Of a DNA stretch of 15,826 nt, positions 4,228-10,200 are shown one piece after another. A program made the position numbers and the translations under genes. The DNA is from Candidatus Peregrinibacteria bacterium RIFOXYB2_FULL_32_7 (GTDB lineage: Bacteria > Patescibacteriota > Gracilibacteria > UBA1369 > GWF2-33-10). A model generated the notes under the pieces. The model made no database searches. It had not been told where the DNA came from and saw only the letters and a list, made by a program, of their open reading frames with translations. Where the stretch lies: positions 1 to 15,826 of the forward strand of contig MFXJ01000007.1 in the NCBI GenBank assembly GCA_001787465.1. The letters run 5' to 3'. The stretch's first letter is position 1; each line of letters opens with the position of its first letter.

Positions 4228-4397
4228 AAAAATAAATTTACAAATCAATCTTACCTTTATCCAACAAAAAAACAAATCTTCCCTCAACCTGAATTTTTCA
4301 TGAATTTTTCGTTGTAAATCTGTTAAAAATCGAAAGTTTTTTCCAAAAGCCACTAGACAGACTTTTTAACCAATGATGAAATTAAATATTGAATAAG

Positions 4398-4427
4398 ATA
4401 ATAAGTAATTAGTAATGAGTAATTAGG
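4398..4427. repeat. Left, inverted copy of a heptamer repeat array
   Basis: Read on the minus strand, 4427-4398 consists of 7-base units TAATTAC, TCATTAC, TAATTAC and TTATTAT after a leading CC. These match the units of the array at 4831-4984 with T in place of C at several positions. The array is therefore an opposite-orientation, decayed relative of the right-hand one, and the two enclose the four-helix-bundle gene. Confidence 0.7.
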
Positions 4428-4455
4428 CTCTATTTTAATTATTAATTTTCTATTT

Positions 4456-4833
4456 ATGAATAATTGTTTAGTGAAAAATTTTTATGATTTAGAAGTTTGG
4501 AAAGAAGCTCATAAATTAATTTTGGAAATATATAAAATAATCAAAACATTTCCAAAAGAGGAACGATTTGGAATTATTGAACAATTAAGAAGAGCAGGCA
4601 CTTCAATCACTGCAAATATAGCAGAAGGATTTGGCAGATATCATTTTAAAGATAAAATTAAATTCTATTATCAATCACGTGGATCGTTACTTGAAGTGCA
4701 AAATTTTTTACTATTAAGTAAAGATTTAGGTTACATAAATACAGAAAAATATAATGAATGTGAAAAGAAAATTGATGGCATAAAAAAACTAACAAACGGT
4801 TTAATAAACTCAATATCAAAACAAATAAACTAA
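4456..4833 (+). CDS. Four-helix-bundle protein of the S23 / 23S rRNA-intervening-sequence family
   Basis: A 125-residue all-helical protein with the family's landmarks: FYDLEVWKEAHKL (about 9-21), FPKEERFGIIEQLRRA (about 32-47), SITANIAEGFGR (about 50-61) and the SRGSLLE turn (about 74-80). The family was first found in open frames inserted in 23S rRNA genes, and the fold is shared with the Avd protein of diversity-generating retroelements. Stand-alone members like this are common in environmental genomes and have no settled function. No rRNA, reverse transcriptase or variable repeat is in this window. The gene is closely bracketed by inverted heptamer arrays; its TAA stop (4831-4833) is the first three bases of the right array. 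This suggests that gene and repeats moved, or are maintained, as one unit. Confidence 0.88.
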   Translation: MNNCLVKNFYDLEVWKEAHKLILEIYKIIKTFPKEERFGIIEQLRRAGTSITANIAEGFGRYHFKDKIKFYYQSRGSLLEVQNFLLLSKDLGYINTEKYNECEKKIDGIKKLTNGLINSISKQIN

Positions 4834-4984
4834 TTACCAATTCCCAATTACCCATTACCCATTACCAATTACCCATGCCCAATTACCAATTACCCATTAC
4901 CAATTCCCAATTACCCATTACCAATTCCCAATTACCCATTACCAATTCCCAATTACCCATTACCAATTCCCAATTACCCATGCC
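4831..4984. repeat. Array of 22 consecutive 7-base units (CAATTAC type)
   Basis: The 154 bases divide without any slip into 22 heptamers. Most are CAATTAC, CAATTCC or CCATTAC; the first is TAATTAC, and two are CCATGCC. From 4901 the order CAATTCC, CAATTAC, CCATTAC recurs as an exact 21-base period nearly four times. The first unit holds the stop codon of the four-helix-bundle gene and the last unit (4978-4984) holds the start codon of tadE. A related inverted array lies at 4398-4427, and short pieces of the same type recur at 5971-5984 and 6015-6030. Confidence 0.92.
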
Positions 4985-5921: not shown

Positions 5922-5970
5922 AATCTCAAAAATCTTCTCCATCCAGTTTAAATGATCCTTTAATTATTAA

Positions 5971-6030
5971 TTACCAATTACCAACTTGCCCGTCCGTAGT
6001 AAAACGAAGGCGGGTTACCAATTACCAATT
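5971..6030. repeat. Hairpin-forming segment inside duplicated TTACCAA repeats
   Basis: TTACCAATTACCAA (5971-5984) and TTACCAATTACCAATT (6015-6030) flank about 30 bases that are GC-richer than anything nearby. Those bases begin CTTGCCCGTCCG and end CGAAGGCGGG, with complementary ends (CCCGTC with GGCGGG, one G-U pair). The block lies 7 bases before the cpaB-like start codon. The layout looks like a small palindromic element set into a stretch of the ATTACC-type repeat seen at 4831-4984. Confidence 0.7.
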
Positions 6031-6037
6031 TTTTCAA

Positions 6038-6667
6038 ATGTTCTCAAAAAAAATATATTACCTTTTCCTAAGTTTTTTCACTCTAACGATTGCCGCACTA
6101 CTTCTTTTTCATTGGATAAGCCAATTTGAAAGCGAAAAAGACTGGATAAAAGTTGTAGTAACGAATAGAAATATTACCGAGGCTATTCAAATTTCTGAAC
6201 AAGACATCACGCTTAAATCTTTTCCAAAAACTCTTTTGAATAATGAGGTTTTTTATGAATCAAAAACTTTACTTGGATTAACTTTAACAAAATCTATTCC
6301 CAAAGGAGCCATTATTTATCAAAGAGATGTTTTTGAAAATATTGATCCTGACTCGCTCTCATTAAAACTTTCCAAAGATAAAAAAGCTTTCACTTTTGAT
6401 GAAAATTGGCTTGCGTCAAAGACTTTAGCCAAAACAAATGACAAAACAGATATCATTATTGCTAAAGAAAATGTGGATTTAAATCAAAACGATTTCATAA
6501 TTAAAAACGCAAAAATCATTAATATTTCAGAAACAAAAAATGCAAATAAATTAATCACTCTTGAACTAACTGATCAAGAAATACGAACTCTGATGTATGC
6601 GAAAGTAAACGATTTTTCAATCCAGCTCCTCATCCGTACAGATGCTCCGCTGGAGCATCTCTTTTAA
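6038..6667 (+). CDS. cpaB: CpaB/RcpC-like Flp pilus assembly protein with SAF domain
   Basis: A 209-residue protein with an N-terminal membrane helix (about 7-28) followed by a SAF-type domain (about 37-100): WIKVVVTNRNITEAIQISEQDITLKSFP, then LLGLTLTKSIPKGAIIYQRDV. This is the usual order in CpaB/RcpC proteins, periplasmic or extracytoplasmic factors of Tad pili. In bacteria with an outer membrane they work with the secretin; no secretin gene is present here, so a wall- or membrane-associated role is inferred. The last residues (DAPLEHLF) and the stop codon are encoded by the first unit of the 23-base repeat array, so the natural C-terminus may have been replaced by repeat sequence. Confidence 0.78.
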   Translation: MFSKKIYYLFLSFFTLTIAALLLFHWISQFESEKDWIKVVVTNRNITEAIQISEQDITLKSFPKTLLNNEVFYESKTLLGLTLTKSIPKGAIIYQRDVFENIDPDSLSLKLSKDKKAFTFDENWLASKTLAKTNDKTDIIIAKENVDLNQNDFIIKNAKIINISETKNANKLITLELTDQEIRTLMYAKVNDFSIQLLIRTDAPLEHLF

Positions 6668-6794
6668 TATAAATGGAGCATCTCTTTTAATATAAATGAA
6701 GCATCTCCTTTAATTCAAATGGAGCATCTTTTAGCACAAATGCTCCGCTGGAGCATCTCCTTTAATATAAATGGAGCATCTCTTTTAATTCTAA
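6641..6794. repeat. Tandem array of about six 23-base units at the cpaB-tadA junction
   Basis: Units begin TGGAGCATCT and end in TTTAATATAAA or a variant. They start at 6651, 6674, 6697, 6720 (21 bases long), 6749 and 6772. Two places, 6641-6659 and 6741-6757, form short hairpins (ATGCTCC, loop GCT, GGAGCAT). The array runs from the last codons of the cpaB-like gene to six bases before the tadA start. Most junctions between units read AAATGGAGCAT, so several units present an ATG, a few codons and a TAA (for example Met-Glu-His-Leu-Phe-stop). Confidence 0.9.
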
Positions 6795-9605: not shown

Positions 9606-9941
9606 TCATAAATAATCCAAAAATTCTTCTTTCGCTTTTTTAGCAAAATAAGTAATTTCACCTATACTTATAGATTCGCGTTCAGATTTTAAATATATAC
9701 AAAGAGGAACTAATATTTGCTTTGCTAATTTAACATAAACATATGATCGAAAAGCTCCTGATTTGCCTTTATTCATATCACTACTTGAAATTCTAATTTT
9801 ATAAATACCCTTGCCGATATGAACAGCACTTTCTACATTAAAAACTCTAAGGCAATCCAAAATATCTCTTTTTACAGATTTAAATTTTTTCTCAAGTTTA
9901 TTAATTTGAGATAAAAAATGGCCTGAGAATAAAATTTGCAT
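9606..9941 (-). CDS. RelE/HigB-like toxin of a type II toxin-antitoxin pair
   Basis: The 111-residue product matches the RelE-fold toxins seen in longer HigB-type members. It has an N-terminal helix with FLSQINKLEKKFKSVK; a strand GIYKIRISSSDMNKGKSGAFRSYVYVK (about 45-71), where the family has 'kiR.a..gkGKSGGyRviy'; and the ending CIYLKSERESISIGEI (81-96), matching 'iYsKs..edis..Ei'. Such toxins cut mRNA on the ribosome, halting growth. Key basic residues remain (Lys58, Lys60, Arg65, Lys85). The antitoxin gene ends one base before it, so the two are translationally coupled. Its 3' end faces the tadC palindrome. Family placement is by motif only; activity is not shown. Confidence 0.8.
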   Translation of the reverse strand: MQILFSGHFLSQINKLEKKFKSVKRDILDCLRVFNVESAVHIGKGIYKIRISSSDMNKGKSGAFRSYVYVKLAKQILVPLCIYLKSERESISIGEITYFAKKAKEEFLDYL

Positions 9942-9942
9942 T

Positions 9943-10200
9943 TTAAGAAAGTCCTAATTGTTCTTCCGCAGAAGGTATTTTTTTTGGATCAATTTTATCT
10001 ACAACGTTAGACAACTCATCAATCGCTCTTCCAAATTCATGTAATTGTTTCATCTTATAGTATTTCACTAAAAAACTAAAAGTAGATGCCCTATTACCTA
10101 AACCTTCCGACTCCTTAATATCATCAAATTCATCAACTATTACTTGAGACACCTTAATAGGAAGAATTTTTTTCGTATCATTTCGATGTAAAGTAAGCAT
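9943..10200 (-). CDS. Antitoxin partner of the RelE-like toxin
   Basis: An 85-residue protein directly upstream of the toxin, with one base between its stop and the toxin's ATG. The first part (ILPIKVSQVIVDEFDDIKE, about 12-30) resembles a strand-helix start as in ribbon-helix-helix DNA-binding antitoxins, followed by RASTFSFLVKYYKMKQLHEFGRAID. The acidic/proline tail (VDKIDPKKIPSAEEQLGLS) is the likely toxin-wrapping part. The first half would bind the promoter palindrome at 10219-10242 and repress its own operon. I cannot assign it to a named antitoxin family from sequence alone; position and size make the role likely. Confidence 0.72.
   Translation of the reverse strand: MLTLHRNDTKKILPIKVSQVIVDEFDDIKESEGLGNRASTFSFLVKYYKMKQLHEFGRAIDELSNVVDKIDPKKIPSAEEQLGLS

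Follow-up and report, generated by a model that had tools for sequence, protein, structure and literature searches.

The S23 locus

The window, i.e. the whole 15,826-nucleotide stretch of DNA analysed (contig MFXJ01000007.1, Candidatus Peregrinibacteria bacterium RIFOXYB2_FULL_32_7), contains an S23/IVP-type gene that lies, with a tandem heptamer array on either side, between genes for RNase H and TadE (Table 1). Some gene names used here and below (leuC, leuD, fadB, fadA, sdhA, sdhB, marR, DUF192, RAYT and similar) were assigned by eye from translations.

Table 1. Features of the S23 unit and of related arrays in the window (positions count from the first nucleotide of the window).
Feature	Position	Strand	Basis
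Left arm: decayed array of AGTAATT-type heptamers, opposite in orientation to the right arm	4399..4427	+	TRF, arm scoring
S23/IVP four-helix-bundle gene, 125 aa, N54/E57/E80 present; proposed mobility protein	4456..4833	+	TIGR02436/PF05635, invariant columns, AlphaFold2, Foldseek
Right arm: 22 heptamers, 0 indels, 21-bp super-period	4831..4984	+	TRF, lag-7 scoring
Right-arm segment pairing best with the left arm	4843..4871	+	Score 17 over 29 nt
Solo remnant with the heptamer of the S23-unit arms (AATTACC), between two tad operon genes	5969..5984	+	
Second solo remnant (TTACCAA), adjoining a GC-rich palindrome	6015..6030	+	

The right array spans 154 nt, and its units are mixed rather than identical (ATTACCA, ATTCCCA, ATTACCC, ATGCCCA). 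Lag-7 matches occur at 117 of 147 positions, the segment score is 75.5 against a best of 11.5 among 2000 shuffles, and the super-period is present in 7.1 copies at 93%; the run of 22 units without slips claimed in a preliminary description of this DNA, made from its letters alone, is thus borne out. The left array is short (TRF: 4392-4423, 4.4 copies, 4% indels) and, as that description also held, both decayed and inverted, since none of 1000 shuffles reaches the score at which it aligns with the reverse complement of the right-arm segment. The TAA stop codon of the S23 gene (4831-4833) forms bases 1-3 of the right array, again as first described. The tadE open reading frame, from 4875, runs through the right array, but the start codon is likely that at 4980, in the last heptamer, because a normal TadE N terminus is kept from there.

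In three relatives that keep a DUF192-tadE order (G001, G007, G020), tadE is not preceded by a heptamer run (lag-7 scores of 5, 3 and 6, respectively). In the window a thioredoxin gene (by eye), an unassigned ORF and the RNase H gene also lie between DUF192 and tadE, so these relatives are not clean empty sites; no near-identical empty site for the window unit itself was found among the relatives compared.

Two further observations concern other parts of the window. At the cpaB/cpaF junction (6637-6784), 23-bp tandem repeats copy the start of the cpaF frame (residues 6-26, 86%), so the listed CpaF start of that ORF may be an artefact. On the minus strand at 9606-10200, two small ORFs resemble a toxin-antitoxin pair, the first scoring 26.3 bits for RelE, just below the cut-off of 27.

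Fold and conservation of the S23 protein

The assignment of the gene to the S23 type holds with both family models, the scores being 122.9 bits for TIGR02436 (cut-off 24) and 131.3 bits for PF05635 (cut-off 33.8); the score for DivGenRetAVD, 32.6 bits, is below the cut-off of 80. The AlphaFold2 model (pLDDT 96.6) has four helices, and its best Foldseek match is 2gsc (TM 0.83-0.87), in agreement with a four-helix bundle. Searches with the model indicate that the fold equals that of 2gsc and 2rld and resembles that of Avd, an accessory protein that is not known to be an enzyme; where other bundles were matched, pectin methylesterase inhibitors among them, this was put down to common architecture. 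A Xanthomonas protein of the S23 family is a toroidal pentamer, according to the accessible text of PMC4990558.

Six polar residues, Q43, R46, S50, N54, E57 and E80, are each kept in 140-143 of 147 S23 proteins, near-duplicate viral ones included. Among 13 low-scoring, mostly Avd-like matches, Q43 is present in 3, S50 in 5, N54 in 6 and E57 in 1, with R46 and E80 mostly replaced. Along helix 34-60 of the model, five of these residues follow one another at spacings of 3, 4, 4 and 3, from which we infer that they share one face.

Substitution ratios were computed for five copy pairs and indicate purifying selection on the protein in four of them. The dN/dS values are 0.018, 0.03, 0.09 and 0.10, rough where dS exceeds 1 (two pairs), and 0.86 in the fifth pair, where the ratio rests on very few changes; two further pairs are too similar for the calculation. 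S23 is the only protein encoded within the unit, in which Pfam and NCBIfam models detect no known transposase domain, and neither a catalytic motif nor a known transposase fold was recognised in S23.

Inverted arms accompany S23 genes

For comparison between loci, each was given an arm score, obtained by aligning the left flank without gaps to the reverse-complemented right flank and keeping the best match; scores of at least 16 were counted as positive. Among 99 related genomes, the window's own included, arms are present at 39 of 70 S23-like matches, compared with 0.57% of 700 mismatched pairs of flanks. The matches above the Pfam cut-off account for nearly all of these (38/57, against 1/13 below it), and eight of the 13 sub-cut-off matches adjoin a reverse transcriptase and resemble Avd. 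Named genomes, represented by the best 80 of at least 583 confirmed stretches, found from the S23 proteins of six relatives (three armed, three armless), have arms at 57 of 80 loci against 4.0% of 800 mismatched pairs, although these loci are not independent, because several share the fad site discussed below. The corresponding values are 17/23 against 4.3% for viral contigs (near-duplicates included), 10/12 against 12.9% for cyanobacterial plasmids, and 19/30 against 4.8% for Gammaproteobacteria, where the flank is too short to score in three of the 30. In Flavobacterium, 34 of 37 loci are armed; the mismatched pairs within that genus reach 30%, because its subfamilies have units in common.

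Control ORFs of 100-250 aa from the same loci have arms in 0/34 and 9/387 cases (9/421 in total), and lag-7 runs accompany 1/34 and 36/387 (9%) of them, compared with 38/80 S23 genes. The link between gene and inverted arrays suggested in the preliminary description is therefore upheld by enrichment beside homologous genes in both the relatives and the named genomes. Armed loci cover about fifteen phylum-level groups, as judged from record titles. Arms are absent or below threshold in 61 of the 232 elements with enough flank and, when all matches among relatives are counted, in 31/70; loci without arms include the sole archaeal one, which has a left flank of just 75 bases. Matches between flanks in direct orientation are also raised (16/80 named, 3/23 viral, 4/37 Flavobacterium, 3/30 Gammaproteobacteria, 2/70 relatives), probably because some flanks carry arrays both ways round. 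A phage collection gave no match to the single S23 protein queried.

Both arms of an element repeat a single short unit, mostly of 7 bp, in opposite orientations. Of the 171 armed elements (of 232), 116 have a best tandem unit of 7 bp, 31 of 8 bp, 6 of 9 bp and 3 of 10 or 11 bp, and 15 have none that is clear. When the arms are aligned in different registers, their mean identity is highest in the best register, at 0.845, and falls to 0.54-0.55 at +/-7, 0.46-0.48 at +/-14 and 0.26-0.35 elsewhere, with higher off-register values near +/-8 and -16; picking the best register inflates the figure of 0.845 but has no such effect on the lag-7 peaks. Measured from one arm to the other, the elements have a median length of 477 bp (10-90% range, 428-551). 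The S23 stop codon lies within or adjoins the right arm in 68 of the 171; the right arm begins up to 20 nt past it in 66 and farther away in 37. In the left arm, G outnumbers C in 128 of 153 elements, is outnumbered by it in 17 and equals it in 8.

Insertion of the unit as a block

Comparison of filled and empty sites in relatives demonstrates that the unit was inserted whole, mostly into intergenic gaps. The clearest case, site A, occurs in conjugative plasmids of ~97% identity, where the unit is found in three records and is missing from six; a tenth record (Nostoc, C052, 90.5%) has a decayed copy. Two carriers, four empties and the decayed copy were compared at sequence level. The empty site reads AAAAAG-TAAT-TAACAAAT and the filled site AAAAAG-TAAT-[array-S23-array]-TAAT-TAACAAAT, so both arrays belong to the insert, which defines the ends that the preliminary description had left to be found from loci with and without the gene. 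The duplicated TAAT is 4 bp (5 counting G), so short a match that it may be chance, and no target-site duplication is visible at sites B, D, E and F, where the ends are imprecise. The filled and empty sequences diverge more at site B (a TraM-type gene) and site C (cas6-cas4); at site D, in an integrase operon, the insert replaces the last codons and provides a new stop; the ends are less exact at site E (cas10-cmr3); and the 'empty' record of site F (cas6-cas4) itself has a short heptamer run. As a separate observation, S23 units lie within CRISPR-cas operons of cyanobacterial plasmids at L412, L419 and L420, and the right array at L419 falls in the annotated start of cas4, the first codons of which are unlike those of an S23-less plasmid.

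That the S23 unit relocates is therefore well supported, and of the two possibilities raised at the outset, a mobile or a domesticated unit, the first is favoured by the enrichment of arms and by presence and absence between near-identical plasmids; the second found no support. A domesticated S23 regulator that binds its own arms and controls the surrounding operon could account for purifying selection and for the usual location of S23 in operon gaps. We nevertheless consider it very unlikely, given the many unrelated host operons involved (fad, leu, sdh, cas, traM-like, virB-like), the variable presence between near-identical plasmids, and the existence of decayed or broken copies (L428, L042, L091).

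It is similarly scarcely credible that the arrays are independent microsatellites or regulatory repeats among which S23 genes happen to sit. S23-less heptamer arrays are indeed frequent in some genomes, as also reported in the available portions of PMC4679880 and PMC4692102. At site A, however, this explanation is refuted by the four empty plasmids, which have no arrays, and the two filled ones, which have both; furthermore, left and right arms match each other and not the arms of other elements, and no array precedes tadE in the three relatives with the DUF192-tadE order.

Arm sequence tracks the S23 lineage

In relatives, the sequence of the repeated unit belongs to the S23 lineage of the element rather than to the site, and units of one lineage occupy different sites. 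Arm similarity of at least 14 was found in 0 of 495 sampled pairs with S23 identity below 40%, in 1.9% of 3949 pairs at 40-50%, 6.5% of 651 at 50-60%, 53% of 55 at 60-70% and 57% of 7 above 70%; these pairs lack flank homology by tblastx over 150-800 bp per side, a filter through which some shared sites may slip. A subfamily with the sequence MHNLKELKIW and AGATNTG-type arms, for example, is found in four operon gaps, i.e. acetyltransferase-aspartokinase (L105), fadB-fadA (L122), fadA-acyl-CoA dehydrogenase (L136, L145) and sdhA-sdhB (L116, L142). One genome, with the order marR-S23-fadB-S23-fadA, has two S23 copies of 86% identity in neighbouring gaps, differing at 6, 0 and 43 sites in the three codon positions (dN/dS 0.018, dS 1.3). 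Different S23 genes are also seen in successive fad gaps at L108 and L136 (fadB-S23-fadA-S23-acyl-CoA dehydrogenase). The second S23 gene of the window's genome, the only other one found in this 74% complete assembly, lies between leuC-like and leuD-like genes and is flanked by inverted 7-mers of another sequence (arm score 20).

On a tree of 131 S23 proteins, the label fadB-fadA requires 10 changes, only 2 of which are forced by supported branches, so that vertical descent could account for many of the Bacteroidota copies at the fad site. Some rows with the label 'other' lie at different positions of that operon. The possibility that the shared flanks of many Bacteroidota loci are 23S rRNA was rejected, since Rfam detects none in five loci and the flanks resemble fadB/fadA.

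Gene-less hairpins and solo arrays

Hairpins with S23-type arms and no gene exist at several sites. Three of them in the window's genome (C67, C101, C103) have AATTACC arms and a similar core and lie in unrelated places, and at another locus of this genome the left arm of a gene-less element aligns with that of the window unit (4398-4426) at 86% over 29 bp (E 0.002). The sequence AATTACCAATT occurs 33 times in the window's genome, compared with once for the reversed control; 21 of these loci were inspected, of which seven are inside long ORFs, probably by chance, and many of the remainder are solo arrays. At one plasmid site, the left end of a gene-less hairpin (L432) is almost identical to that of the S23 unit which the related plasmid L417 carries there, and because of this shared end we read the hairpins as non-autonomous derivatives of S23 units.

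The fadB-fadA gap of Flavobacterium, parsed in 66 cases (70 of 99 matches were fetched), displays the range of such forms. Eight gaps are empty (3-5 nt); 41 have 75-130 nt and no S23 gene, 27 of these having an inverted score of at least 14 and being mostly heptameric, with inverted but not heptameric sequences at L247, L253 and L304; five have 174-276 nt; 10, of 441-572 nt, have S23 units; and of two larger gaps, one holds a RAYT-like gene and the other an S23 gene broken by REP-like repeats. Arrays that stand at the same locus in relatives regardless of the gene had been named in the preliminary description as counting against a unit tied to its repeats, and in part this is what the fad site presents, in the form of the 41 gene-less gaps with their 27 inverted cases.

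Several observations at these loci stand apart. The L238 fadB-fadA gap has two tandem hairpins split by a copy of the fadA start and fadB end, i.e. a tandem duplication of the hairpin plus junction. At L252, L260 and L243, in other species, the fad gaps are occupied by REP-like repeats, alone or together with a RAYT-like gene for a Y1 transposase (by eye), and the Flavobacterium fadB-fadA gap is apparently a common landing site for unrelated small elements. A GC-rich palindrome of the CCCGTCCGTAGTGAAACGAAGGCGGG type adjoins AATTACC arrays at four places in the window's genome (window 5985-6014, L011, L017 and L027, the last partly cut off), possibly as another repeat family using the same gaps.

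What moves the unit

Taking the evidence together, we propose, with a probability of about 0.72, that the unit in the window is a copy of a widespread family of minimal mobile elements of ~430-550 bp, ordered left array-S23-right array. We think it probable that S23 is the mobility protein of the unit, a role assigned on the grounds that the unit contains no known enzyme, that RT and Y1 are absent from some carriers, that a polar face is conserved and that a family member is pentameric; that S23 is itself catalytic we rate at rather less than an even chance. RVT_1 and Y1 models have no match in five S23-bearing genomes, i.e. that of the window (G000, 74% complete) and G001, G022, G091 and G092 (96-99% complete). 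Other S23 genomes have Y1 (e.g. G046, G096, G098) or RT (e.g. G040, G051); a dependence on either is unsupported, since S23-bearing genomes exist with matches to neither.

In the proposed mechanism, S23, a toroidal pentamer in the solved relative, would bind the repeated units of both arms and join the ends of the unit, possibly on an extruded hairpin. Cleavage and joining might be performed by the polar face of S23 (Q43, R46, S50, N54, E57, E80) or by a host nuclease, and insertion could leave a short duplication. The arms would provide stop codons, enabling flanking genes to survive, and each arm could template the other so that the two remain matched; such mutual templating would cause the unit to drift jointly in both arms along an S23 lineage. 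Gene-less hairpins could be mobilised in trans. Excision or transposition of an S23 unit was not observed in these sequence comparisons.

By an alternative that we regard as unlikely, S23 is a passenger or accessory, and a recombinase encoded elsewhere, other than RT or Y1, moves anything so armed, hairpins included. The commonness of gene-less hairpins and the fact that no enzyme was recognised in the unit would fit such an arrangement. It accords less well with purifying selection on S23 in four of five pairs, with the tracking of S23 identity by the unit sequence, and with the absence of RT and Y1, the only two enzymes scanned for, from several S23-bearing genomes.

The element might instead act at the level of RNA, as the 23S intervening sequence (IVS) does, with the arms folding in operon mRNA, RNase III cutting the stem, pairing being selected, and spread occurring via RNA or recombined cDNA. 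The Coxiella IVS has a 28-bp stem cut by RNase III (available text of PMC4990558), and armed S23 genes are co-directed with both neighbours in 56 cases and opposed to both in 15; however, armless S23 genes are equally co-directed (25 versus 8), so the orientation may merely reflect expression. Mismatches between the arms, read in the sense RNA, comprise 143 G-U and 211 A-C (p = 3.6e-4), opposite to the prediction for selected RNA pairing. The named genomes are the main source of this skew (29 versus 66), which is absent from relatives (40 and 45) and viral contigs (19 and 16); the fad hairpins give 17 versus 45, but share ancestry. The skew speaks against an IVS-like RNA function being the main constraint, and the deficit of G-U would be compatible with pairing of the opposite strand or with asymmetric mutation. 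As, in addition, no RT was found in several S23-bearing genomes, we consider an RNA-level element improbable.

Implications and comparison with known systems

A mobile S23 unit offers one testable explanation for three puzzles, i.e. the role of stand-alone S23 proteins, the origin of the 23S IVS, and the commonness of intergenic heptamer arrays. Were S23 itself to move the unit, it would be a mobility protein built as a helical bundle of ~120 residues, for which we know of no comparable example. A broader proposal, which we put forward tentatively and would not back at even odds, is that S23/IVP proteins are DNA mobility enzymes of a new class, pentameric and wholly helical, which use a conserved polar face to cut and join tandem-heptamer hairpin ends and co-evolve with the unit they recognise; the class would be a common source of the 23S IVS and of the heptamer arrays of cyanobacteria, Beggiatoaceae, Bacteroidetes and Xanthomonas, with Avd descending from it after loss of the face. 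For annotation, it follows that S23 genes in operons, including CRISPR-cas operons, can be hitch-hikers, and that translated arrays, e.g. the tadE extension in the window, are artefacts.

Several known systems share features with the S23 unit. REP/RAYT systems and REPINs likewise combine a small gene between inverted repeats with many gene-less intergenic hairpins, and a RAYT-like gene and REP-like repeats (by eye) occur in the same fad gap of other Flavobacterium. RAYT is a Y1 transposase, however, whereas S23 is not, and PF01797 is unmatched in the window's genome (74% complete). MITEs and insertion sequences resemble the unit in their terminal inverted repeats, gene-less derivatives and, at one site, a possible target-site duplication, and copies without a gene but with the same arms recur at several sites (C67/C101/C103, the fad gaps and L432). 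By contrast with them, the S23 unit has no recognised transposase, and it has variable tandem arrays, different from one element to the next, as terminal repeats. Unlike Avd of diversity-generating retroelements, the unit has no neighbouring RT, RVT_1 being unmatched in the window's 74% complete genome, and Avd-like matches mostly lack the S23-specific residues.

The heptamer arrays described previously, so far as the available parts of the reports extend, are like S23 arms in being intergenic and sometimes in inverted pairs. MacGregor (2015) described TAACTGA arrays, here compared by description only, in Beggiatoaceae, cyanobacteria and Bacteroidetes, with no transfer mechanism evident (PMC4679880). 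Rehm (2015) reported GGGAATC arrays in Xanthomonas, with 70 and 75 inverted pairs in two species and generally without association to mobile elements (PMC4692102). S23, IVS or four-helix wording was not found in the available parts of these two papers. GGGANTN units form or flank the arms of S23 units in Gammaproteobacteria; since no close relative of XCC0516 was found among the 369 genomes drawn (best identity 58%), the Xanthomonas link is reduced to these units in other Gammaproteobacteria. A CRISPR survey names the IVP domain (accessible text of PMC10910872), which S23 units in cas operons could explain. The literature search, which left bioRxiv and most subscription journals outside its range, found no paper joining an S23 gene with heptamer arms; the S23 unit with such arms is apparently an undescribed mobile element.

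A close parallel is with the 23S IVS of Leptospira, Coxiella and others, for the features of which we follow the available text of PMC4990558. The protein family is the same, the ORF is enclosed by terminal inverted repeats, as is also found in the window, and the size is similar, the Coxiella IVS being 428-444 nt. Warrier (2016) called the Coxiella IVS selfish and the origin of such elements unclear, and the IVS is thought possibly mobile (same source). The differences are that the IVS sits in rRNA whereas S23 units lie between protein genes (RNase H and tadE in the window, with no rRNA detected by Rfam in the loci of five relatives), that the IVS has one unique stem in place of arms made mostly of tandem heptamers, and that gene-less copies and empty sites were found for S23 units. 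It may be that the classical 23S rRNA IVS is a special case of the S23 unit.
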